The translations under genes were made by a program, and so were the position numbers. The notes under the pieces were generated by a model. The model did not search any database. It saw only the letters and a program-made list of their open reading frames with translations, and was not told the origin of the DNA. A stretch of 33,074 nt of DNA from Streptomyces rochei (lineage in GTDB: Bacteria; Actinomycetota; Actinomycetes; Streptomycetales; Streptomycetaceae), in NCBI GenBank assembly GCA_002155895.1, contig MUMD01000206.1, positions 1 to 33,074 on the forward strand, given 5' to 3'. This document shows, one piece after another, positions 270-27,031 of the stretch (the stretch's first letter is position 1; each line of letters begins with the position of its first letter).

Positions 270-1172
270 TCACAGCGCGTCGACCTCCGCCGCCGTCGGG
301 TACGACGCCTGCGCGCCCGCCCTGGTCACCGCCGCCGCTCCCACCCGTGCCGCGTAGGCCGCGGCCTGGGCCAGCGAGGCGCCGGTGCCCAGCCGCCAGG
401 CCAGCGCCGCCGTGAACGCGTCGCCCGCGCCCGTCGTGTCCACGGCGTCCACCTTCACGGACGGCACCCGGGACACCTCCGCCCCCGACGCCACCAGCGC
501 ACCCTCCGCGCCCAGCGTGACGACCACCGAGCGCGGCCCCTTGGCCAGCAGGATGCGGGCCCAGTCCTCGGGGCGGTCGCTCACACAGGCGTCACCCAGG
601 ATGACCTTCGCCTCGTGCTCGTTGACGATCAGCGGGTCGCAGGCGTCCAGCACCTCCCGGGGAAGCGGCAGCGGCGGCGACGGGTTCAGCACGAAACGGC
701 TGCCCGGCGCCAGGCTCCGGACGACCTCCACCACCGTCTCCAGCGGCACCTCCAACTGCGTGGAGACCACGCGGGAGGCGTGGAAGAGGCTGGCGGCGGC
801 GCGGACGTCGCCGGGTGCCAGGCGGCCGTTGGCGCCCGGCGAGACCACGATGCTGTTGTCGCCGGACGGGTCGACGGTGATCAGCGCGACGCCGGTCGGG
901 GCGCCGCCGACCAGGACGCCCACCGTGTCGACACCGGCCGCCCGCTGCGAGTCCAGCAGCAGCCGACCGTAGTCGTCGTCGCCGACCCGGGCCAGCAGGG
1001 CCGTGCGGGCACCGAGCCGGGCGGCGGCCACCGCCTGGTTCGCGCCCTTGCCGCCCGGGTGGACGGCCAGGTCGGTGCCGAGCACCGTCTCGCCGGCCCC
1101 CGGCCGCCGCTCGACGCCGATCACGAGGTCGGCGTTGGCCGATCCCACGACCAGGAGGTCGTAGTCGTACAT
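270..1172 (-). CDS. rbsK: Ribokinase (PfkB family)
   Basis: This 300-residue protein is of normal length for ribokinase, which phosphorylates D-ribose to ribose 5-phosphate with ATP in the cytoplasm. Visible family signatures are the N-terminal VVGSANADLV, the PfkB signature-1 Gly-rich stretch HPGGKGANQAVAAARLG near residue 40, the NPSPPLPLP segment, VNEHEAKVILG, and the C-terminal DTTGAGDAF carrying the anion hole and catalytic Asp. The ATG at 1170-1172 is preceded by GGAGAG at 8 nt. It follows the permease/binding-protein fusion after 67 bp and is followed by rbsD after 13 bp, so it is probably read from the same transcript. PfkB kinases vary in substrate, but adjacency to rbsD and a ribose-type transporter argues for ribose. 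Confidence 0.95.
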   Translation of the reverse strand: MYDYDLLVVGSANADLVIGVERRPGAGETVLGTDLAVHPGGKGANQAVAAARLGARTALLARVGDDDYGRLLLDSQRAAGVDTVGVLVGGAPTGVALITVDPSGDNSIVVSPGANGRLAPGDVRAAASLFHASRVVSTQLEVPLETVVEVVRSLAPGSRFVLNPSPPLPLPREVLDACDPLIVNEHEAKVILGDACVSDRPEDWARILLAKGPRSVVVTLGAEGALVASGAEVSRVPSVKVDAVDTTGAGDAFTAALAWRLGTGASLAQAAAYAARVGAAAVTRAGAQASYPTAAEVDAL

Positions 1173-1239: not shown

Positions 1240-3198
1240 TCAGCCCTCGAAGCCGGCCACGTTCTCCTTGGTGACGACCTTCACCGGCACCTTCACCATC
1301 TTCTCCGTCTTCTCGCCCTCGGCGGCGCGCAACGCGTTCTCCACGGCGATCCTGCCCAGTTCCCTGGGCTGCTGCGCCACCGAGGCGTACAGCGTGCCCT
1401 CCCGCACCGCCTTCAGCCCGTCCGGCGTGCCGTCGAACCCGACGACCTGCACGGACTTCCCGGCCTTGGAGCCCAGCGCCTTGATCGCGCCGAGCGCCAT
1501 CTCGTCGTTCTCCGCGAAGACACCGTCGACGTCGGGGTGCGCCTGGAGCAGGTTGGTCATCACGTCCAGGCCCTTGGTGCGGTCGAAGTCCGCGGGCTGC
1601 TTGGCGACGACCTTGATGCCCGGGTACTCCTTCAGCCCGGCCGCGAAGCCCGCGCCGCGCTCCCGGCTGGCGGAGGTGCCGGCCTGGCCCTGGAGGATGA
1701 CGATGGTGCCCTTGCCGCCGAGCTTCTCGGCGAGCGCCCGGGCGCCCAGCTTGCCGCCCTCGACGTTGTCGGAGGCGACCAGCGCCGAGGTGTCCGCCTT
1801 GTTGACGCCCCGGTCCACCGCGATGACGGGGATGTCGTCCTTGTTCGCCGAGCGCACCGAGGGGCCGGCCGCGTCGGAGTCCACCGGGTTGACGATGATC
1901 GAGGACAGGCTCCCGCTGACGAAGTTCTGCAGCTGGTTGGCCTGCTGGGAGGCGTCGTTCTGGGCGTCCGTGACCGTCAGGTCCACGCCCAGCTTCTTCG
2001 CCCGCTCCTCGGCGCCGGCGCGGATCTGCACGAAGAACGGGTTGTTCAGCGTGGACAGCGACAGACCGATCCGCTGGGTCTTACCGCCCGAGGACCCGTT
2101 GTGCAGCAGCGAGGTCGCGCCGACCACGGCGACGGCGACGACGGCCGCGATGACGTACGTCAGCGCCTGCTTGCCCCGGTTCCCGCCGCCGGACGCCCCG
2201 GCCGCCGGGGTCGTCGCGCCCGCCTTGCGGCGCAGCGTGTCGAAGAGCACGGCCAGCGCGATGACGACACCGATGACGACCTGCTGCCAGAACGCGGAGA
2301 CGGACAGCAGGTTGAGGCCGTTGCGCAGCACCGCGAGGATCAGCGCGCCGATCAGCGTGCCGGACGCCTTGCCGGTGCCGCCGGCGAGCGAGGCGCCGCC
2401 GATGACGACGGCGGCGATGGCGTCCAGTTCGTAGCCCTGCGCGGCCTGCGGCTGCGCGGAGGAGAGACGGGAGGCCAGCACGATGCCCGCGGCGGCGGCG
2501 AACAGCCCGGAGAAGGCGTAGATGGCGAGCTTCTGCCGCTTCACCCGCAGCCCGGACAGCCGGGCGGCCTCCTCGTTGCCGCCGATGGCGTACATGGAGC
2601 GCCCGATGTAGGTCCGCCCGAGGACGAAGGCCGTGATCAGCCCCATCACGATCATCACCAGCACCGGCACCGGCAGCCACCCGCCGAGCGTGTCACCGAG
2701 GTGCGAGACCGACTCCGGGAAGGCGATCGGCGAGCCCTGCGAGATGACCAGCGACAGACCGCGCCCCACCGACAGCATGGCGAGCGTCGCGATGAACGGC
2801 GGCAGCTTCCCGTACGAGATGAGGAAGCCGTTCACCAGGCCGCAGGCGATGCCGGTGGCGACGGACAGCAGCACCGCCAGCACCACGGGCATCCCGGCCT
2901 CGGTGGCGCTCCACGCCAGCACGGTGGCCGACAGCGCGGCGACCGAGCCGACCGACAGGTCGATGCCGGCCGAGACGATGACGAAGGTGACGCCGAAGGC
3001 GAGGATCGCGGTGACGGCGGCCTGGACGCCGACGTTGAGGAGGTTGTCGGCGGTCAGGAAGTCCCCGGACAGCGCCGACATGGCGATGACGAGGACGATC
3101 AGCGCGGTCAGGGCGCCGTTGTCGAGCAGCAGGCGGCGCAGGCCGCCCGTGGCGCCGCCCTGCGCGCCCGGCTTGCTCTTGAGCGTGTCAGTGGCCAC
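1240..3198 (-). CDS. Fused ABC sugar permease and substrate-binding protein (RbsC-RbsB)
   Basis: One 652-residue chain carries two transporter subunits that are normally separate. Residues 1 to about 330 form an RbsC-type permease with about 8-10 hydrophobic segments and the motif FVIVSAGIDLSVGSV. A Gly/Ala-rich linker and one extra hydrophobic helix (about 346-365, YVIAAVVAVAVVGATSLL) follow. Residues from about 371 to the end form a periplasmic-binding-protein type 1 domain (RIGLSLSTLNNPFFVQI, FAENDEMALGAI, VVGFDGTPDG). The extra helix would place the binding domain outside the cell as a tethered receptor, replacing the usual lipoprotein. The start is GTG at 3196-3198, overlapping the end of the ATPase gene by 11 bp, so translation is probably coupled. 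No lipoprotein signal and no second binding-protein gene are visible nearby. The domains are clear; ribose specificity is inferred from rbsK/rbsD. Confidence 0.93.
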   Translation of the reverse strand: MATDTLKSKPGAQGGATGGLRRLLLDNGALTALIVLVIAMSALSGDFLTADNLLNVGVQAAVTAILAFGVTFVIVSAGIDLSVGSVAALSATVLAWSATEAGMPVVLAVLLSVATGIACGLVNGFLISYGKLPPFIATLAMLSVGRGLSLVISQGSPIAFPESVSHLGDTLGGWLPVPVLVMIVMGLITAFVLGRTYIGRSMYAIGGNEEAARLSGLRVKRQKLAIYAFSGLFAAAAGIVLASRLSSAQPQAAQGYELDAIAAVVIGGASLAGGTGKASGTLIGALILAVLRNGLNLLSVSAFWQQVVIGVVIALAVLFDTLRRKAGATTPAAGASGGGNRGKQALTYVIAAVVAVAVVGATSLLHNGSSGGKTQRIGLSLSTLNNPFFVQIRAGAEERAKKLGVDLTVTDAQNDASQQANQLQNFVSGSLSSIIVNPVDSDAAGPSVRSANKDDIPVIAVDRGVNKADTSALVASDNVEGGKLGARALAEKLGGKGTIVILQGQAGTSASRERGAGFAAGLKEYPGIKVVAKQPADFDRTKGLDVMTNLLQAHPDVDGVFAENDEMALGAIKALGSKAGKSVQVVGFDGTPDGLKAVREGTLYASVAQQPRELGRIAVENALRAAEGEKTEKMVKVPVKVVTKENVAGFEG

Positions 3199-4723
3199 GG
3201 GAGGCCTCCGTTCCGGTTTCGTCGGTGTGCGGGGTGCTGACGGCGAGCGCCATCACGGCGTCCTGGGTGGCCTCGGCGGCGGGAAGTTCGCCGGCGATCC
3301 GCCCCTGCGCCATGACGACCACCCGGTCGCTCATGCCGAGCACCTCGGGGAGGTCGCTGGAGATCATGAGCACGGCGGCGCCGGCGGCCGTCAGTTCGTT
3401 GATGAGCTGGTAGATCTCGACCTTGGCGCCGACGTCGATGCCGCGCGTCGGCTCGTCGAGGATCAGCACCTTGGTGTTCGCCAGCAGCCACTTGCCGATG
3501 ACGACCTTCTGCTGGTTGCCGCCGGACAGGGTCCGCACGTGCTGCCCGAGCCCGGCCATCCGCACGCCGAGCTGCCCGGCGATCCGCTCGGCCGCCGCGT
3601 GCTGCCCCTTGAGGTCCACGATCCCCGCGCGGGCGGACGACCTCAGCGTCACCAGCCCCAGGTTCTCCTCGACGGAGGCGTCGAGCACCAGCCCCTGACC
3701 CTTGCGGTCCTCGGGCACCAGCCCGATCCCGGCGGCCATCGCGGCGTTGACGTCGTGCCGCCGCAGCGGCGCGCCCGCGACGTGCACGCTCCCGGAGTCG
3801 TAGGGGTCGGCGCCGAACACCGCCCGCACGACCTCCGTGCGCCCGGCCCCGACCAGCCCGGCGATGCCGACGACCTCACCGGCCCGCACCTCGAAGCTCA
3901 CGTCGTGGAAGACGCCGTCCCGCGTGAGTCCTTCGACCCTGAGCAACGCCTCACCGGCGTCACCGCGTTCGCGCGGGTACTGCTGCTCGATGGACCGTCC
4001 GACCATCAGCCGCACCAACTCGTCCTCGGGCGTGGAGGCGGGCACCTGCCCGACGCTCCTGCCGTCCCGGATGACGGTGACGCGGTCGCCGAGGGCGGCG
4101 ATCTCCTCCAGGTGGTGGGTGATGAAGACGATGCCCACACCGTCCTCGCGCAGCCGCCGCACGATGGCGAAGAGCTTGTCGACCTCCTCGGAGGTGAGCA
4201 CGGCGGTCGGCTCGTCCATGATGAGCACCCGCGCGTCCAGGCTGAGCGCCTTGGCGATCTCGACCATCTGGAGGCGCGCGATACCGAGTTCACGCACCCG
4301 TGCCCGCGGGGACACCTTGACCCCCACGCGCTCCAGCAGCACCTCCGCGTCCGCGTCCATCTTCTTCCGGTCGATCATCCCGAACCGGCGGGGCTGGCGC
4401 CCCAGGAAGATGTTCTCGGCGACCGTCAGGTCGGGGACGAGGTTGAACTCCTGGTAGATGGTGGCGATCCCGAGCCGCTCGGAGTCCTGCGCACCGTGGA
4501 TGCGCACCTCCTCGCCGCCGGCCAGGATGCGCCCGGCGTCGGGCGTGTAGGCGCCGGAGAGCATCTTGATGAGGGTGCTCTTGCCCGCGCCGTTCTCACC
4601 GAGCAGCACGTGCACCTCGCCCCGGCGCAGGTCGAAGTCGACGCTGTCGAGCGCGACCACGCCGGGGAAGGTCTTGCGGATGCCCTCGATGCGCAGCAAC
4701 TCGTCCGGACTGCGGCTGCTCAC
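3188..4723 (-). CDS. rbsA: Sugar ABC transporter ATP-binding protein, two ATPase domains (RbsA type)
   Basis: The 511-residue protein has the tandem nucleotide-binding layout of RbsA/MglA/XylG. Domain 1 has Walker A GENGAGKS at residues 42-49, the degenerate signature ARLQMVEIAKAL and Walker B VLIMDEPTAVLT. Domain 2 has the usual altered Walker A (GLVGAGRTE), signature LSGGNQQKV and Walker B VLILDEPTRGID. The ATPase powers uptake through the fused permease encoded immediately downstream. I chose the GTG at 4721-4723 because GAAGGAG lies correctly upstream; an in-frame ATG at 4789 would put 66 bases inside the regulator gene. The start overlaps the regulator stop as GTGA (4 bp), and the gene end overlaps the next start by 11 bp, so the three genes look translationally coupled. 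Confidence 0.95.
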   Translation of the reverse strand: MSSRSPDELLRIEGIRKTFPGVVALDSVDFDLRRGEVHVLLGENGAGKSTLIKMLSGAYTPDAGRILAGGEEVRIHGAQDSERLGIATIYQEFNLVPDLTVAENIFLGRQPRRFGMIDRKKMDADAEVLLERVGVKVSPRARVRELGIARLQMVEIAKALSLDARVLIMDEPTAVLTSEEVDKLFAIVRRLREDGVGIVFITHHLEEIAALGDRVTVIRDGRSVGQVPASTPEDELVRLMVGRSIEQQYPRERGDAGEALLRVEGLTRDGVFHDVSFEVRAGEVVGIAGLVGAGRTEVVRAVFGADPYDSGSVHVAGAPLRRHDVNAAMAAGIGLVPEDRKGQGLVLDASVEENLGLVTLRSSARAGIVDLKGQHAAAERIAGQLGVRMAGLGQHVRTLSGGNQQKVVIGKWLLANTKVLILDEPTRGIDVGAKVEIYQLINELTAAGAAVLMISSDLPEVLGMSDRVVVMAQGRIAGELPAAEATQDAVMALAVSTPHTDETGTEASRGH

Positions 4724-5766
4724 GGCGTACTCCTTCGTACGGGGGAGGGGGACGGGGGGTGTGCGGTGCCGGAGGGGGACTCTCCGCACGAGCGGCGCAC
4801 GACGAGCCGCGCCGGCAGGGTGACGGACTCGCCGGTCCGCCCCTCGATCCGGTCGACGAGCGCGCGTACGGCGGCCCGCCCGAGGTCGCCCGTGGGCTGG
4901 GCGATCGCGGTGACCGGGGGATCGGTGTGCACGAACCAGCGGATGTCGTCGAACGCGGCGAGCGCAATGTCCTCGGGGACGCGCAGCCCGCGCGCCCGTA
5001 CGGCGTCCAGCGCGCCGAGCGCCATCAGGTTGTCGGCGGCGAACACGACGTCGGGCGGCTCGGGGAGGTCGAGGAACCCCTCGGTGACCCGGCGTCCGCT
5101 CTCCGCCTGGAAATCGCCCTGGCCGATGCGGTCGTCGGGGAGGGGGAGCCCGTACTCGGCGAGCGCCTCGCGGAAGGCGTCGACGCGCTCGCGTCCGGTC
5201 GTGGTGGCGGCGGGCCCGGCGATGATGGCGAGCCTGCGGTGCCCGAGCCGGTACAGGTGCGCGACGAGGTCCCGCACCGCGCCCCGCCCGTCCGACCGCA
5301 CCACGGGCACGTCCACGCCGGGGATCCAGCGGTCGACGAAGACCATCGGGGTGCCGGCCCGCGCGGCCTCCAGCATGCGCGGGGAGCCGCCGTCGGTGGG
5401 GGAGACGAGGAGCCCGTCGATCCGCCGGTCGAGCAGCGTCGTCACGTGGTGGTCCTGGAGATCGGGCCGCTCGTCGGCGTTGCCGATGATGACGCTGTAG
5501 CCGAGCGCGCGGGCCTCTTCCTCCACGGAACGGGCCAGTTCGGTGAAGTAGGGGTTCATGACGTCGCTGATGACCAGCCCGAGGGTGCGGGTCTGATCGG
5601 TGCGCAGCGACCGGGCGACGGCGTTCGGCCGGTAGCCCAGCGCCTCGACGGCGGCCAGCACGCGGGCGCGGGCGCCGGGGCTGACGGACGGGTGGCCGTT
5701 GAGGACGCGCGAGACCGTCGCGACGGAGACGCCCGCCTCGACGGCGACGTCCTTGATGCTCGCCAT
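4720..5766 (-). CDS. LacI-family transcriptional regulator of the sugar operon
   Basis: This 348-residue repressor has a LacI N-terminal helix-turn-helix (MASIKDVAVEAGVSVATVSRVLN, about residues 1-24), a hinge with RSLRTDQTRTLGLVISD, and a periplasmic-binding-like effector domain ending near residue 330. A Pro/Ser-rich tail of about 20 residues follows. ATG at 5764-5766 has an excellent AGGAGGT 9 nt upstream. It is the first gene of the operon and shares a GTGA overlap with rbsA, so repressor and transporter are made from one mRNA, an autoregulated arrangement. Two near-identical operator-like elements lie 19 bp before the start codon. By analogy with RbsR, ribose or a derivative would be the effector; this is inferred from context, not seen in the sequence. 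Confidence 0.92.
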   Translation of the reverse strand: MASIKDVAVEAGVSVATVSRVLNGHPSVSPGARARVLAAVEALGYRPNAVARSLRTDQTRTLGLVISDVMNPYFTELARSVEEEARALGYSVIIGNADERPDLQDHHVTTLLDRRIDGLLVSPTDGGSPRMLEAARAGTPMVFVDRWIPGVDVPVVRSDGRGAVRDLVAHLYRLGHRRLAIIAGPAATTTGRERVDAFREALAEYGLPLPDDRIGQGDFQAESGRRVTEGFLDLPEPPDVVFAADNLMALGALDAVRARGLRVPEDIALAAFDDIRWFVHTDPPVTAIAQPTGDLGRAAVRALVDRIEGRTGESVTLPARLVVRRSCGESPSGTAHPPSPSPVRRSTP

Positions 5767-11514: not shown

Positions 11515-11757
11515 ACCCGAGACCCTCCGGTCAAACCTCCGACCCGTGTGAAAAAAATGATCGATCAAATGAGTCGGGAAGGTCACAGAGCACTTCCGGA
11601 TGGGGAGGAGAGGGGGCAGGATGAGCTGGTTGGCGGCACTGAGTGCCGCCAATAGGCCCGATGGTCGACCCCGAGTGCACTCTCCTGAGCCAAGTGGGGG
11701 ATGGTAGAGACAGTCAGGGCACCTCGAAGATGAGGCACTACGTCGGTGAGGGAAGAC
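11515..11757. other. recD2–citA intergenic region with AT-rich palindrome and hairpin
   Basis: No gene is seen. An A-rich island unusual for this genome (11551-11570) ends in the palindrome TGATCGATCA (11558-11567). A perfect 10-bp inverted repeat (TTGGCGGCAC at 11630-11639 and its complement at 11643-11652) with a 3-nt loop lies midway. It has no T-run, so it could be a recD2 terminator or a structure at the citA promoter. The citA promoter must be here, but no convincing hexamer pair was found. Confidence 0.5.
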
Positions 11758-13047
11758 GTGAGCGACAACTCTGTAGTACTGCGGTACGGCGACGGCGAGT
11801 ACACCTACCCGGTGATCGACAGCACCGTCGGCGACAAGGGCTTCGACATCGGGAAGCTCCGCGCCCAGACCGGTCTGGTGACGCTGGACAGCGGGTACGG
11901 CAACACCGCCGCCTACAAATCCGCCATTACCTACCTGGATGGCGAAGCCGGCATCCTGCGGTACCGCGGCTACCCGATCGAGCAGCTGGCCGAGCGCTCT
12001 TCCTTCGTGGAGGTCGCCTACCTGCTGATCAACGGCGAGCTGCCGACCGTCGACCAGCTGGCCGCCTTCAAGGGCGAGATCACGCAGCACACCCTGCTGC
12101 ACGAGGACGTCAAGAACTTCTACAAGGGCTTCCCGCGCGACGCCCACCCGATGGCCATGCTGTCGTCCGTGGTCTCCGCGCTGTCGACGTTCTACCAGGA
12201 CAGCCACAACCCGTTCGACGAGCGTCAGCGCAACCTCTCGACGATCCGGCTGCTCGCCAAGCTCCCGACGATCGCCGCCTACGCGTACAAGAAGTCGATC
12301 GGTCACCCCTTCGTCTACCCGCGTAACGACCTCGGCTACGTGGAGAACTTCCTGCGCATGACCTTCTCGGTCCCCGCGCAGGAGTACGAGCTTGACCCGA
12401 TCGTGGTCTCCGCGCTGGACAAGCTGCTGATCCTGCACGCGGACCACGAGCAGAACTGTTCGACCTCCACCGTCCGCCTGGTCGGCTCCTCGCAGGCGAA
12501 CATGTTCGCGTCGATCTCGGCCGGCATCAACGCGCTCTGGGGCCCGCTGCACGGCGGCGCCAACCAGTCGGTGCTGGAGATGCTGGAGGGCATCCGCGAC
12601 TCCGGCGGCGACGTCGACACCTTCATCCGCAAGGTGAAGAACAAGGAGGACGGCGTCCGCCTGATGGGCTTCGGCCACCGGGTCTACAAGAACTTCGACC
12701 CGCGCGCCAAGATCATCAAGGCCGCCGCCCACGACGTGCTCTCCGCCCTCGGCAAGTCCGACGAGCTGCTGGACATCGCCCTGAAGCTGGAGGAGCACGC
12801 GCTCTCCGACGACTACTTCACCGAGCGCAAGCTCTACCCGAACGTCGACTTCTACACGGGTCTGATCTACCGGGCCATGGGCTTCCCGACCGAGATGTTC
12901 ACGGTCCTGTTCGCCCTCGGCCGCCTGCCGGGCTGGATCGCCCAGTGGCACGAGATGATCAAGGAGCCGGGCTCCCGCATCGGCCGCCCGCGCCAGATCT
13001 ACACCGGCGTCGTCGAGCGCGACTTCGTGCCGGTCGAGGAGCGCTGA
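11758..13047 (+). CDS. citA: Citrate synthase (type II, CitA)
   Basis: The enzyme condenses acetyl-CoA and oxaloacetate into citrate, the entry step of the TCA cycle. The 429-residue chain is the usual length of the hexameric type II enzyme and keeps its three catalytic residues: His265 (GPLHGGANQ), His307 (FGHRVYKNFDPRA) and Asp364 (YPNVDFYTG). The ending RPRQIYTG is also typical. I chose GTG at 11758-11760, giving VSDNSVVLRYGDGEY; GAGGGA lies close upstream. An in-frame GTG at 11746 would add only four residues and has a weaker site. The gene is monocistronic: a strong hairpin follows 23 nt after the stop. In S. coelicolor loss of this gene is known to block aerial growth through acidification. 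Confidence 0.96.
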   Translation: MSDNSVVLRYGDGEYTYPVIDSTVGDKGFDIGKLRAQTGLVTLDSGYGNTAAYKSAITYLDGEAGILRYRGYPIEQLAERSSFVEVAYLLINGELPTVDQLAAFKGEITQHTLLHEDVKNFYKGFPRDAHPMAMLSSVVSALSTFYQDSHNPFDERQRNLSTIRLLAKLPTIAAYAYKKSIGHPFVYPRNDLGYVENFLRMTFSVPAQEYELDPIVVSALDKLLILHADHEQNCSTSTVRLVGSSQANMFASISAGINALWGPLHGGANQSVLEMLEGIRDSGGDVDTFIRKVKNKEDGVRLMGFGHRVYKNFDPRAKIIKAAAHDVLSALGKSDELLDIALKLEEHALSDDYFTERKLYPNVDFYTGLIYRAMGFPTEMFTVLFALGRLPGWIAQWHEMIKEPGSRIGRPRQIYTGVVERDFVPVEER

Positions 13048-13702: not shown

Positions 13703-15979
13703 TCAGCGAAACGCGCGCAGGCGCAGGCTGTTGGTCACCACGAACACCGAGGAGAAGGCCATCGCCGCGCCCGCGATCATCGGGTTCAGCAGCCCGGCGG
13801 CGGCCAGCGGCAGCGCGGCCACGTTGTAGCCGAAGGCCCACACCAGATTGCCCTTGATCGTGGACAGGGTGCGCCGGGAGAGGCGGATCGCGTCCGCGGC
13901 CACCCGCAGATCGCCGCGGACCAGTGTCAGGTCGCCGGCCTCGATCGCCGCGTCCGTCCCCGTGCCCATCGCCAGCCCCAGGTCGGCGGTGGCGAGCGCG
14001 GCCGCGTCGTTGACGCCGTCGCCCACCATGGCGACCGTGCGGCCCTCGCGCCGCAGCCGTTCCACCACGGCGACCTTCTCCTCGGGCAGGACCTCGGCGA
14101 TCACCTCGTCGACGCCGACCGCCCGGGCCACCGACTCGGCGACCCGCCGGTTGTCACCGGTCAGCAGGACGGGCGTCAGGCCGAGCCGGCGCAGCTCGGC
14201 CACCGCCTGGGCACTGGTCTCCCTGACGGTGTCCGCCACGGCGACGACGCCGCGCGCGGTGCCGTCCCAGCCGACCACCACGGCCGTACGGCCGTCCCTC
14301 TCGGCCTCGTCGCGGGCGCGGGCGACCTCGGGCGGGAGCGTGTCGTGCAGGCGCCCCACGGTCACCTCACGGCCCGCCACACGACCCCGTACGCCCCGGC
14401 CCGGCACGCTCTCGAAGTCCTCGACGTCCGGCAGCGCGCCGAGCCGCTCCTCGGCGCCGGCCGCGACCGCCCGGGCCACGGGGTGCTCGGAGGCGTGCTC
14501 GACGGCGCCCGCGAGCCGCAGCAGCTCGTCCTCGTCGGTGCCCTCGGCGGCGTACACCTCCCGCAGGGTCATGCGGCCGGTGGTGACGGTGCCGGTCTTG
14601 TCCAGGACGACCGTGTCGACGCGCCGCGTGGACTCCAGCACCTCCGGGCCCTTGATGAGGATGCCGAGCTGGGCGCCGCGCCCGGTGCCGACCAGCAGCG
14701 CGGTCGGCGTGGCCAGGCCCAGGGCGCAGGGACAGGCGATGATCAGGACGGCCACGGCGGCGGTGAACGCGGCGACGGTGTCACCGGTGGCGCCCAGCCA
14801 GCCGCCGAAGGTGGCGGCCGCGATCAGCAGCACGACGGGCACGAAGACCCCGGAGATCCGGTCGGCGAGCCGCTGCACCTCGGCCTTGCCGCTCTGCGCG
14901 TCCTCGACCAGCTTCGCCATCCGCGCCAGCCGCGTGTCGGCGCCCACCCGGGTCGCCTCGACCACCAGCCGCCCCGCGGCGTTGACGGTGGCCCCGGTGA
15001 CGGCGTCGCCGACGCCGACGTCCGACGGCACCGACTCGCCGGTCAGCATCGAGGCGTCCACGGCGCCGGAGCCGTCGACGACGGTGCCGTCGGTGGCGAT
15101 CTTCTCGCCGGGCCGCACGACGAACCGGTCGCCGACCGCCAGCCGGCCCACCGGGACCCGCACCTCACGCCCGTTCCGCAGCACCGCGACGTCCTTCGCG
15201 CCCAGCTCCATCAGGGCCCGCAGGGCGGCCCCGGCGCGGCGCTTGGAGCGGGCCTCCAGCCAGCGGCCGAGCAGCAGGAAGGCGGTGACCCCGGCGGCGG
15301 CCTCCAGGTAGATCGCGGACGCGCCGTCGGCGCGCGAGACGGTGAGGTCGAAGCCGTGCCGCATGCCCGGCATGCCCGCGTCCCCGAAGAACAGCGCCCA
15401 CAGCGACCAGCCGAACGCCGCCAGCGTGCCCAGGGAGACCAGGGTGTCCATGGTGGCCGCGCCGTGGCGGAGATTGGTCCAGGCGGCGCGGTGGAAGGGA
15501 AGGCCGCCCCAGACGACGACGGGCGCGGCCAGGGTGAGCGACAGCCACTGCCAGTTGTCGAACTGCAGCGCCGGGACCATCGCGAGCAGGACGACCGGGG
15601 CGGCCAGCAGGGCCGAGACGACCAGGCGCCGGCGCAGCGCGGACAGCTCCGGGTCGCCGTCCGCGTCGGCGGGCCGCGCGCCGGTGGCCTCCGCGTCGTC
15701 GGCCGGCTCCGGCGGCGGCGCGGGTTCCTCGGCGGTGTAGCCCGTCCTGACGACGGTGGCGATCAGGTCGGCCACCGGCGTGGTCGCCGGGTACGTGATC
15801 CGGGCCTTCTCCGTCGCGTAGTTCACCGTGGCGGTGACGCCGTCCATGCGGTTGAGCTTCTTCTCGACCCGGGCGGCGCAGGAGGCGCAGGTCATCCCGC
15901 CGACGATCAGCTCGACCTCGGCGAGGTCCGGCTCGGTGGCCGCGGTGTCCGTGGGCGTCGCGGCGGTGGTGCTGGTCAT
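13703..15979 (-). CDS. copA: Copper-exporting P1B-type ATPase CopA
   Basis: This 758-residue inner-membrane pump exports Cu(I) using ATP. One N-terminal heavy-metal domain carries GMTCASC (Cys31, Cys34). An acidic, Pro-rich linker leads to eight predicted membrane helices. The transport motif is CPC (Cys416-Pro-Cys418), the phosphorylated Asp460 lies in [11 protein letters not shown] is in [10 protein letters not shown], and the nucleotide hinge is GDGVND. YN in helix 7 and MxxSS in helix 8 ([10 protein letters not shown]) are the Cu(I)-selective P1B-1 signature. ATG at 15977-15979. It follows copZ by 92 bp in the same direction, so the chaperone and pump are probably one transcript under the CsoR-like operator at 16381. 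Confidence 0.95.
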
Positions 15980-23501: not shown

Positions 23502-26153
23502 ATGGATCTTCGACTGCCCCGCGTGCGAGGGCTGCTACGGGGACCGCGGCGGCTGCTCGCCGCCGCGGCCGCCGTCGTCGTGCTCGCCGGTGCCGGGACC
23601 TGGACGGCCGTCGCCGGTGACGACCCGCCACCGGTGCACCGCTCGGACCGGGTCGTGGCCGTGGGCGACGGGGTGCGCCTGAACACCTCCTACTTCACGG
23701 CGGGTCCGGCCGGCCGCCGCCCCGCGGTCCTGCTCGCCCACGGCTTCGGCGGCAGCAAGGCCGACCTGCGGGACCAGGCGGAGGACCTCGCCCGCGACGG
23801 GTACGCGGTCCTGACCTGGTCGGCGCGCGGCTTCGGCGAGTCCACCGGGAAGATCGGGCTGAACGCCCCGGACGGCGAGGTCGCCGACGTCTCCCGGCTG
23901 ATCGACTGGCTGGCCGAGCGGCCCGAGGTCCGGCTGGACGGGAAGGGCGACCCGCGCGTGGGCGTGGCGGGCGGCTCCTACGGGGGCGCGGTCTCGCTGC
24001 TGGCCGCCGGCCACGACGACCGGGTCGACGCGATCGCCCCGGCCGTCACCTACTGGAACCTCTCGGACGCCCTCTTCCCGAACGGCGTCTTCAAGAAGCT
24101 GTGGGCCGGCATCTTCGTCAACCTGGGCGGCGGCTGCGGGCGGTTCGAGGACGACCTGTGCCGCATGTACCAGCGGGTCGCCGAGTCCGGGAAGCCGGAC
24201 GCCGCGGCCACGGCCCTCCTCGACCAGCGCAGCCCGCAGGCCGTCGCCGACCGCATCGACGTACCCACCCTGCTGGTGCAGGGCCAGACCGACTCCCTCT
24301 TCCCGCTGGGCCAGGCCGACCTGGCCGCCGAGGCGATCCGGGACAACGGCGCCCCCGTGGCCGTCGACTGGATCGCGGGCGGGCACGACGGCGGCGACCT
24401 GGAGACCGACCGCGTCGAGGCCCGTATCGGGGCGTGGTTCGACCGCTACCTGAAGGACGACGCGTCGGCCGGCACCGGACCCGCCTTCCGCGTCACCCGC
24501 ACCGTCGGCACCGGCAGCGGCGACGGCGAGCCCCGCCTGGAGGGCGTGAGCGCCGACACCTACCCCGGGCTGGGCAGCGACCCCCGCCCGATCGCACTGC
24601 GCGGCCGCGAGCAGACCTTCGACAACCCGGCCGGCGCCAACCCGCCCGCCGTCTCCGCCCTCCCCGGCATCGGCGGCTCCGGCGGACTCGCCCAGCTCTC
24701 CTCCCTCGGCGTCGGCGTCTCCCTCGACTTCCCCGGCCAGCACGCCGCGTTCGAGTCGGAGCCGCTGGAGGAGGACGTCCGGATCACCGGCTCGCCGACC
24801 GCGACCGTGCACGTGAAGTCCACGAAGGACGAAGCCGTGCTCTTCGCCAAGGTGTACGACGTCGGACCCGGCGGCGCCCAGCCCGTGCTCCCCTCCCAAC
24901 TGGTCACGCCCGTCCGGGTGGACGGCGTCGGCGACGGCAGGGACGTGCGGCTCACCCTGCCCGCGATCGACCACGAGGTGGAGAGCGGCCACCGCCTGCG
25001 CCTGGTCCTGTCCTCCACCGACCTCGGGTACGCCTCCCCGGCCGCGCCCGCGCGGTACACCGTCTCCCTGAAGGGCGGCCTGACGGTCCCGACGGGCCTC
25101 GGCGACACCGGACAGGTGGCCGGGCTGCCCGCCTGGGTGTGGTGGGCACCGCTCGCGGGCGCCGCGGTGGCCGCGGTCCTGCTGCTGACCGCCCGCCGCC
25201 GCACCACGGCGCCGCCGCCCGACCCGGCGCTGGCCGGAGTCCCGCTCCAGATCACGGGCCTGACCAAGCGGTACGGCAAGTCCGGCGACCGGTACGCCGT
25301 GCGGGACCTGTCCTTCCGCGTGGAACAGGGCCAGGTGCTCGGCCTGCTCGGGCCGAACGGCGCGGGCAAGACGACCACCCTGCGCATGCTGATGGGCCTG
25401 ATCGGCCCGGACGGCGGCGAGATCCGCGTCTTCGGCCACGCCATCGCGCCCGGCGCCCCGGTGCTCTCGCGCGTCGGCGCGTTCGTCGAGGGCGCGGGCT
25501 TCCTGCCGCACCTGTCCGGCCGGGAGAACCTGGAGCTGTACTGGCGGGCCACCGGCCGCCCGCCCGAGGACGCCCACCTCGACGAGGCCCTGGAGATCGC
25601 CGGGCTCGGGGACGCGCTCGCCCGCGCGGTGCGCACCTACTCCCAGGGCATGCGCCAGCGTCTGGCCATCGCCCAGGCCATGCTGGGCCTGCCCGACCTG
25701 CTGATCCTGGACGAGCCGACCAACGGCCTGGACCCGCCGCAGATCCGCGAGATGCGCGAGGTGATGATCCGTTACGCCGCGGCCGGCCGCACGGTGATCG
25801 TCTCCAGCCACCTCCTGTCCGAGGTCGAGCAGAGCTGCACCCACCTGGTGGTCATGGACCGCGGGCGGCTCGTCCAGGCGGGCCCGGTCGCCGAGATCGT
25901 CGGCACCGGGGACACGCTGCTGGTGGGCACCTCCACGGCGGTGGACGCGCCCCTGGCCGAGAAGGTGGCCGCGCTGCCCGGCGTGGCCTCGGCGGCGGTG
26001 GCCGACGGCGGCCTGCTGGTGCGGCTCGGACCGGACGGCACCGCCCGGGACCTGATCGCCGAACTCGTCCGCCTGGACGTGCCCGTGGAGTCGGTGGGCC
26101 CCCACCGCCGCCTCGAGGACGCCTTCCTCACCCTGATCGGAGACCCGGCATGA
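23502..26153 (+). CDS. Alpha/beta hydrolase (X-Pro peptidase/CocE type) fused to an ABC transporter ATPase
   Basis: A single 883-residue chain joins an extracytoplasmic enzyme to a cytoplasmic motor. Residues 1-40 are a basic, hydrophobic signal-anchor (RRLLAAAAAVVVLAGAG). Residues about 45-535 are an S15/CocE-type hydrolase: nucleophile Ser159 in GGSYGGAV, Asp264 in GQTDSLFP, His295 in GGHDGG, then a jelly-roll domain (FPGQHAAFESEPLEEDVRITG). A membrane helix follows (about 542-563, WVWWAPLAGAAVAAVLLL), then a complete ABC ATPase: Walker A GPNGAGKT 617-624, signature YSQGMRQ 713-719, Walker B ending Asp737-Glu738, and H-loop His770. All key residues are intact. The stop overlaps the permease start as ATGA, so the partner is an ABC-2 exporter. 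The substrate is unknown; export or processing of a peptide or ester is inference. Confidence 0.92.
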   Translation: MDLRLPRVRGLLRGPRRLLAAAAAVVVLAGAGTWTAVAGDDPPPVHRSDRVVAVGDGVRLNTSYFTAGPAGRRPAVLLAHGFGGSKADLRDQAEDLARDGYAVLTWSARGFGESTGKIGLNAPDGEVADVSRLIDWLAERPEVRLDGKGDPRVGVAGGSYGGAVSLLAAGHDDRVDAIAPAVTYWNLSDALFPNGVFKKLWAGIFVNLGGGCGRFEDDLCRMYQRVAESGKPDAAATALLDQRSPQAVADRIDVPTLLVQGQTDSLFPLGQADLAAEAIRDNGAPVAVDWIAGGHDGGDLETDRVEARIGAWFDRYLKDDASAGTGPAFRVTRTVGTGSGDGEPRLEGVSADTYPGLGSDPRPIALRGREQTFDNPAGANPPAVSALPGIGGSGGLAQLSSLGVGVSLDFPGQHAAFESEPLEEDVRITGSPTATVHVKSTKDEAVLFAKVYDVGPGGAQPVLPSQLVTPVRVDGVGDGRDVRLTLPAIDHEVESGHRLRLVLSSTDLGYASPAAPARYTVSLKGGLTVPTGLGDTGQVAGLPAWVWWAPLAGAAVAAVLLLTARRRTTAPPPDPALAGVPLQITGLTKRYGKSGDRYAVRDLSFRVEQGQVLGLLGPNGAGKTTTLRMLMGLIGPDGGEIRVFGHAIAPGAPVLSRVGAFVEGAGFLPHLSGRENLELYWRATGRPPEDAHLDEALEIAGLGDALARAVRTYSQGMRQRLAIAQAMLGLPDLLILDEPTNGLDPPQIREMREVMIRYAAAGRTVIVSSHLLSEVEQSCTHLVVMDRGRLVQAGPVAEIVGTGDTLLVGTSTAVDAPLAEKVAALPGVASAAVADGGLLVRLGPDGTARDLIAELVRLDVPVESVGPHRRLEDAFLTLIGDPA

Positions 26154-27031
26154 GCACGCAGGTCGAACGGGCCGCGCCCGCCGGCCCCCAGGAGGTCGCC
26201 GAGGGCTACCGCGCGGGCCGCACGCTGCCCGTGCGGGTGGAGCTGGTCCGCCAGCTGAAGCGGCGGCGCACCCTCGTCATGGGCGGCATCCTGTTCGCCC
26301 TGCCGTTCGTGCTGCTCGTCGCCTTCCGGATCGGCGGCGAGCCGGGCGGGCCGAACAACCAGATCAGCCTGATGGACTCGGCCACCGCGTCGGGAGCCAA
26401 CTTCGCCGCGGTGAACCTCTTCGCCTCCGCCGGGTTCCTCCTCGTCGTGCCCGTCGCCCTGTTCTTCGGGGACACGGTCGCCTCGGAGGCCGGCTGGTCC
26501 TCCCTGCGGTACCTGCTGGCCGCGCCGGTGCCCCGCGCCCGCCTGCTCTGGTCCAAGCTGGTCGTCGCCCTGCTCCTCAGCCTCGCGGCGATCGTCCTGC
26601 TGCCGCTGGTCGCGCTGGCCGTGGGGACGGCCGCCTACGGCTGGGGGCCGCTGGAGCTGCCCACCGGCGGCAGCCTGCCCACCGGCACCGCGGCCGAGCG
26701 CCTGGCGATCACGGTGGCGTACGTCTTCGTCTCGCAACTGGTCACCGCCGCGCTGGCGTTCTGGCTGTCCACCAAGACCGACGCCCCGCTCGGGGCGGTC
26801 GGCGGCGCGGTCGGCCTGACCATCATCGGCAACGTCCTGGACGAGGTGACCGCCCTCGGCGGCTGGCGCGACCTCCTGCCGGCGCACTGGCAGTACGCCT
26901 GGCTCGACACGGTCCGGCCCGAGCTGGACTGGACCCGGCTGATCCAGGGCACGTCCCTGTCGGTGACGTACGCCCTGGTGCTCTTCGCCCTGGCCTTCCG
27001 CGGCTTCGCCCGCAAGGACGTGGTGTCCTAG
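26150..27031 (+). CDS. ABC-2 type permease, partner of the hydrolase-ABC fusion
   Basis: The 293-residue membrane protein has about six hydrophobic segments (LVMGGILFALPFVLLVAF, FLLVVPVALFFGDTVASEAGW, LVVALLLSLAAIVLLPLVALAV and others) and the ABC-2 pattern GDTVASEAGWSSLRYLLAAPVPRARLLWSKL. Its roughly 45-residue Arg-rich cytosolic N-terminus precedes the first helix. ATG at 26150-26152 overlaps the upstream stop by 4 bp (ATGA), so the two chains are made in linked amounts. ABC-2 permeases pair with single ATPases to export lipids, drugs or peptides; with two ATPase-permease chains this would form a dimeric exporter displaying two hydrolase domains outside. No terminator with a T-run was found behind it. 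Confidence 0.92.
   Translation: MSTQVERAAPAGPQEVAEGYRAGRTLPVRVELVRQLKRRRTLVMGGILFALPFVLLVAFRIGGEPGGPNNQISLMDSATASGANFAAVNLFASAGFLLVVPVALFFGDTVASEAGWSSLRYLLAAPVPRARLLWSKLVVALLLSLAAIVLLPLVALAVGTAAYGWGPLELPTGGSLPTGTAAERLAITVAYVFVSQLVTAALAFWLSTKTDAPLGAVGGAVGLTIIGNVLDEVTALGGWRDLLPAHWQYAWLDTVRPELDWTRLIQGTSLSVTYALVLFALAFRGFARKDVVS

Follow-up and report, generated by a model that had tools for sequence, protein, structure and literature searches.

A predicted exofacial lipase-like hydrolase joined to the ATPase of a putative ABC-2 exporter in Streptomyces and other actinobacteria

Some described machines bring an ATP-binding cassette (ABC) motor together with a hydrolase or another partner at the membrane surface. 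C39 peptidase-containing ABC transporters (PCAT) carry a cytosolic cysteine protease on the membrane domain, cell-wall hydrolases are under the control of FtsEX, and in NosDFY the motor acts on a partner outside the membrane. Here we analyse a gene of Streptomyces rochei, found on contig MUMD01000206.1 in a stretch of 33,074 nucleotides (hereafter the window), whose single product joins an alpha/beta hydrolase, predicted to lie outside the cell, to an ABC ATPase; a gene for an ABC-2 permease follows directly. As in PCAT, hydrolase and ABC motor share one chain, but here the enzyme is a serine hydrolase placed on the ATPase, while the permease is separate. A Pfam search of the fusion at E 0.001 returned no C39 domain. 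The ATPase and permease of NosDFY are among the closest folds to those found here, and there too an exofacial partner sits on an ABC-2 motor; NosD, however, is a separate, unrelated protein. Unlike FtsEX, the locus encodes a permease that matches only ABC2_membrane models (Pfam, E 0.001) and not the FtsX type. No description of a hydrolase-ABC ATPase fusion appeared among the literature matches listed, a search of open-licence PMC titles and abstract beginnings that did not cover InterPro-type annotation resources. The component families are all known; what appears to be new is that the ATPase, and not the permease, carries the hydrolase, together with sister systems linked to LolA-like genes.

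The reading that we prefer, with a probability of roughly 45%, is that the two genes encode an ATP-driven exporter whose substrate, amphiphilic and probably carrying an ester, is handed to an esterase tethered outside the membrane.

The fusion gene begins with ATG and encodes, from the N to the C terminus, a hydrophobic segment, a hydrolase of the Peptidase_S15 plus PepX_C type, a central membrane helix and the ABC ATPase. An AlphaFold2 model of the chain has a mean pLDDT of 80. Conservation was followed in two sets. The named-record set of 82 loci was assembled from two sources: a scan of named genomes, of whose 445 relatives the best 80 were kept, and a plasmid collection, which added two records (Tsukamurella; Nonomuraea). 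Because the 80 scan loci were chosen by score with hydrolase patterns drawn from fused members, they are biased to close relatives, and they come from Streptomyces or its close kin (one is titled Kitasatospora). The diverse set holds 24 fused sequences, window included. The features, all on the plus strand, are as follows.

23502 to 26153, plus strand: fusion gene (alpha/beta hydrolase, jelly-roll, membrane helix and ABC ATPase), 883 residues; from the open reading frame with Pfam and NCBIfam matches
23556 to 23612, plus strand: hydrophobic segment near the N terminus, residues 19-37, either a signal peptide or an anchor that stays uncleaved; 19-residue hydropathy 1.88
23622 to 25106, plus strand: predicted exofacial hydrolase, residues 41-535, with an alpha/beta hydrolase core and a C-terminal beta jelly-roll (PepX_C)
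23976 to 23978, plus strand: codon of the nucleophile Ser159 (GGSYG); Ser in 82/82 loci and 24/24 diverse fused sequences
24135 to 24161, plus strand: Cys212 to Cys220, probable exofacial disulfide; both Cys in 80/82 loci
24291 to 24293, plus strand: codon of triad Asp264; Asp in 82/82 loci and 24/24 diverse fused sequences
24384 to 24386, plus strand: codon of triad His295; His in 82/82 loci and 24/24 diverse fused sequences
25137 to 25193, plus strand: membrane helix in the centre of the chain, residues 546-564, with RRR right after it; hydropathy 1.89
25239 to 26150, plus strand: ABC ATPase domain, residues 580-883; Glu replaces Gln in the Q-loop (E663)
26150 to 27031, plus strand: ABC-2 permease, 293 residues; its start overlaps the fusion stop (ATGA)

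The chain is neither a frameshift product nor an assembly artefact, which the sequence-only reading had named as one danger to its idea of a fused machine. Ninety-two of 101 Streptomyces genomes contain a close homologue of the hydrolase part (E at most 1e-100), in one place each, and all 92 lie in frames of at least 873 residues without internal stops (their ATPase halves were not checked one by one); all 82 named-record loci are fused and have the permease alongside. Across the phylum, 78 of 396 sampled genomes match the hydrolase at E 1e-20. Forty loci fetched from 37 of these 78 comprised 23 hydrolase-ATPase fusions followed by a permease and 17 lone hydrolases, one of which (L064) is truncated by a contig end. 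The sample includes 12 genomes from the genus of the window, and 11 of them, among these the window's own, carry the fusion; fusions are also present in other families and outside the class. The fusion with its permease is thus conserved in Streptomyces and is also found well beyond that genus.

In one relative (L041:4070-7003) the fused chain has 978 residues, about 95 more than its kin, with the surplus in the ATPase half. On a plasmid of Tsukamurella tyrosinosolvens (L079:4971-8230) a fusion of 791 residues is followed by a permease with the ATGA overlap; in this record, the one annotated relative examined, the fusion is called merely an 'alpha/beta fold hydrolase', an unremarked annotation of the kind that the sequence-only reading had foreseen, so that annotation can hide the family.

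Peptidase_S15 matches residues 56-268 with 78.5 bits (curated cut-off 23), PepX_C residues 413-514 with 57.6 bits (cut-off 22.5) and ABC_tran residues 601-741 with 105.3 bits (cut-off 25), and the chain also passes NCBIfam CocE_NonD (TIGR00976; 96.9 bits, cut-off 66.3). The catalytic triad that had been read from the sequence is in place and, as listed above, invariant in the fused sequences, which argues against a chance occurrence; lone hydrolases keep it as well (17/17), so its conservation is not peculiar to the fusion. CocE uses tyrosine in its oxyanion hole. The fused members have an invariant H80-G81-F82 in the region expected to form the oxyanion hole. Chains matched among the CocE/NonD esterases and the S15 X-Pro dipeptidyl peptidases, unlike the fusion, have no ABC domain.

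By sequence and by fold, the nearest solved structure to the hydrolase is a lipase, PaL (PDB 8yzn/8yzo), and the original label of 'peptidase' is not supported. PaL, which from its abbreviation we take to be the Pseudomonas alcaligenes lipase, cleaves menthyl esters according to PMC9902596. It was solved as a stand-alone lipase, in a chain that, unlike the fusion, has neither membrane helix nor ATPase. The three family matches above their cut-offs (Peptidase_S15, PepX_C and CocE_NonD) would suit a peptide exporter whose exofacial X-Pro or other peptidase matures the exported peptide, yet the lipase as closest solved structure weakens the X-Pro peptidase label, and we regard a peptide exporter as improbable.

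The placement of the hydrolase outside and of the ATPase in the cytosol is predicted from hydropathy, charge and the Cys212/Cys220 pair. Two hydrophobic segments, residues 19-37 and 546-564, the second followed by three arginines, fit this arrangement. At the site of the N-terminal segment, hydropathy is at least 1.6 in 77 of 83 named-record sequences, a count to which the window contributes one; five of the remaining six reach 1.43-1.51, and one (L120) falls to -1.02. The central site reaches at least 1.6 in 24/24 diverse fused sequences and in 79 of the 83 (lowest value 1.43). A third window above the threshold, at residues 822-840, is not taken as a membrane helix, since it sits within the ATPase half. 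The two cysteines are present or lost together: the same two of 82 loci have Ala at both positions, and in the diverse set the pair is jointly missing from two sister sequences of the tree, L045 and L046. Such paired behaviour matches the expectation for an exofacial disulfide. An exofacial hydrolase, as proposed before, is therefore still the predicted topology. The proposal of one central membrane helix stands in so far as segment 546-564 was found; the segment at residues 19-37 counts as a second one unless it is a signal peptide, and a chain with a single central helix requires its cleavage.

On the predicted cytosolic side the ABC motor is intact, as had been claimed, with Walker A (GPNGAGKT at 617), signature (SQGM at 714), Walker B (LLILDE at 733) and H-loop (H770); the Walker Lys, the Walker B Glu and the H-loop His are each found in 82/82 fused loci. 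The permease matches Pfam ABC2_membrane_4 with 35 bits (cut-off 27) and has about six hydrophobic segments. Intact nucleotide-binding motifs and an ABC-2 permease partner, two of the features of an ABC-2 type exporter, are both seen in the sequence. The ATGA coupling of the two genes was confirmed at position 26150, and the final bases of the fusion are ATGA in 75, GTGA in six and CTGA in one of the 82 loci; among diverse loci, the four-base overlap of permease start and fusion stop occurs in 18 of 23.

The Q-loop glutamate E663, present in 82/82 loci and 23/24 diverse sequences, brings up self-protection: a pump that expels a membrane-active antibiotic or peptide while the head destroys the same compound. 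Lantibiotic and bacitracin immunity ATPases carry Glu in the Q-loop, a point for which the literature search turned up no paper. The best NCBIfam ATPase matches listed are likewise DrrA (TIGR01188) and a lantibiotic-protection ATPase (TIGR03740), but both lie far under their cut-offs (173.1 against 312.45 and 167.7 against 309.75 bits), and no ATPase model among the 25 of 195 NCBIfam matches listed exceeds its cut-off on the fusion. Moreover, a gene present in 92 of 101 Streptomyces genomes, in one place each and with recurring neighbours, is unlike a cluster-borne trait. Self-protection thus seems unlikely to us.

The evolutionary record was followed from two sides, the hydrolase and the ABC pair. 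A hydrolase-domain tree with 41 rows unites all 24 fused sequences in one group (support 100/99), joined by the contig-cut L064; the other 17 rows, L064 included, are lone proteins. The tree supports a single origin of the fused hydrolases. We rejected L064 as a genuine split hydrolase within the fused clade, for its frame ends at a contig edge; a jelly-roll end, ATPase and permease, which appear to be its missing half, lie in the same genome on another contig (L181), in a frame that is also cut. Rejected too was a further fusion in genome G075, where the sole remaining frame of more than 800 residues among the hydrolase matches (1154 residues) proved to be a lone hydrolase with no ATPase, permease or LolA-like gene within 10 kb. 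No split version of a fused-type hydrolase and ATPase, the case that had been named as a possible refutation, was seen among the loci inspected. These results also touch the possibility that the fusion is a tether only, which anchors the esterase at the membrane and equalises the amounts of pump and enzyme acting on unrelated substrates. Related lone hydrolases with the triad kept are in its favour. Against it stands a single fused clade that has been retained in several families and also outside the class, while the inspected loci show no split form; we give a mere tether little chance.

For the ABC pair, a permease-profile search of the 396 genomes gave matches in 67. The 25 matches of at least 373 bits belong to exactly the 25 genomes in which a fusion was seen; below them the score drops to 310 bits, for an un-fused ATPase/permease pair. 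From 55 lower-scoring places, 19 were fetched, hand-picked across families of the same phylum (L162-L180). They encode homologues of the ATPase and the permease, arranged as at the fusion locus, as separate frames in 18 of 19, but the ATPase has no fused hydrolase, and none was found in any of the 19 fetched stretches. The ABC pair therefore also occurs headless, a refinement of the earlier reading. The one exception to separate frames, L173:3563-5386, combines a hydrophobic segment, ABC ATPase and ABC-2 permease in one chain; it comes from another family of the same class and has the look of a relative from which the hydrolase head was lost or always absent.

Since pairs exist with no hydrolase, the ABC pair would seem to have a job of its own. 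This speaks against mechanotransmission, in which nothing is transported and ATP cycles shift the membrane helices to gate or position the exofacial hydrolase, by analogy with FtsEX and NosDFY. The permease, of ABC-2 type with about six hydrophobic segments, argues in the same direction. We hold mechanotransmission to be a minority possibility, though a less remote one than self-protection.

The un-fused loci show a further, unforeseen feature. Upstream of the ATPase, on the same strand, 14 of the 19 have a LolA/RseB-like gene. A profile built from eight of these 14 loci (six stayed outside the build) matched the solved structure of LolA at E 1.8e-5 and MucB weakly (0.06). Pfam MucB_RseB matches six of the eight members at E of at most 0.1 (best 1.5e-7), and NCBIfam lolA seven of eight (best 1.4e-6), the member displayed lying far below the cut-off. 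A hydrophobic segment in the N-terminal region is found in 10 of 13 measured frames, which run from stop to stop with real starts undefined. In 123 other loci, for each of which a few kilobases were fetched, no such gene was found. LolA and RseB bind lipids or acylated lipoproteins. As far as sequence can tell, the slot just upstream of the ATPase is often filled in both branches by a predicted exofacial protein, LolA-like in one and the (fused) hydrolase in the other.

In Streptomyces itself a three-gene sister unit of LolA/RseB-like gene, ABC ATPase and ABC-2 permease occurs at L162:2215-5618, L163:4294-7717 and L164:4227-7532, with a polyprenyl synthetase gene upstream of the first. Its counterpart in the genome of the window (G000:C374:42-2395) consists of the closest ATPase paralogue (C374:42-986, 44% identity) and an adjoining LolA-like gene (C374:1142-2395), and the contig ends ahead of any permease. 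The ATPase gene lies within 42 bases of that end, so the permease could be missing from the assembly, and we place no reliance on the apparent lack of a permease paralogue.

Our model of the exporter builds on the fused chain, the intact catalytic and ATPase motifs, the one fused-hydrolase clade, the adjoining permease and the headless ABC relatives, most of those fetched having a LolA/RseB-like gene. From these we infer the topology, a 2:2 assembly, the direction of export, a lipid-like substrate, the coupling of the two activities and cleavage after transport. Two fusion chains and two permease chains would presumably form an ABC-2 exporter, each half of which has a serine-esterase/lipase-type enzyme tethered to its outer face. 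Powered by ATP hydrolysis in the cytosol, the permease would move an amphiphilic small molecule or lipid, probably bearing an acyl ester, out of the cytoplasmic membrane or lift it from there, and the tethered hydrolase would cut this cargo during its emergence, making release irreversible and confining it to the exit site; this would be the 'process-as-exported' machine of the sequence-only reading. More tentatively still, we propose an actinobacterial family of ABC-2 motors in which amphiphiles taken from the membrane pass to an exofacial acceptor whose gene lies directly upstream. In one branch the acceptor would be a LolA-like lipid carrier, and here an ATPase-fused lipase/esterase that would cleave the departing cargo. 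If true, the fusion would represent a near-core Streptomyces membrane complex with an exofacial serine hydrolase hard-wired to an ABC motor, and a case in which ATP hydrolysis is coupled to chemistry at the opposite membrane face. Together with the LolA-associated sister system it would offer a lead to the surface transport of lipids or amphiphiles in Gram-positive actinobacteria.

Several observations weigh against this picture. In the stretches fetched for L165, L166 and L167, which have the three best-scoring un-fused permeases, and for L173 and L177, both the hydrolase and a LolA-like gene are absent, so that an exofacial partner next door is not always required. Likeness to lipases and LolA, in fold or sequence, is no proof of a lipid substrate, and sampling of the lower-scoring permease places was limited to 19 of 55. 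When ATPase and permease are combined in a tree, the fused rows do not fall on one side of a single branch and their label needs two changes, with L173 on a very long branch and L055 beside split rows; by this tree the fusion may have been gained once and then lost in places, or gained later. Finally, neighbouring genes outside Streptomyces, where scanned, are inconsistent and point to no pathway.

Around the fusion in the 82 loci, family-level matches recur to aldehyde-dehydrogenase-type (68/82), VWA (44/82) and amino-acid permease genes (37/82). We rejected the neighbourhood as a substrate clue, as genes for CWB2 cell-wall-binding proteins, Bax1-I membrane proteins, a PadR regulator and a histidine kinase vary among the neighbours scanned outside Streptomyces. 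Both fusions fetched from family f31 have a CWB2 cell-wall-binding-domain gene immediately upstream (L058:5941-7221, minus strand; L059:2662-3798, plus strand), and at that position L060 and L061 have a gene for a Bax1-I family membrane protein.

Elsewhere in the window, a heavy-metal P-type ATPase with an HMA domain (13706-15979, minus strand) and a citrate synthase (11746-13047) form a stretch that, to judge from the gene order, may be the counterpart of the region around the copper transporter SCO2731 in S. coelicolor. A gene at 1243-3198 (minus strand) encodes a BPD_transp_2 permease and a Peripla_BP_4 binding protein as one polypeptide, another chain that combines an ABC subunit with an exofacial domain; beside it lie a two-domain ABC ATPase (3191-4789, minus strand) and a PfkB kinase (273-1172, minus strand).

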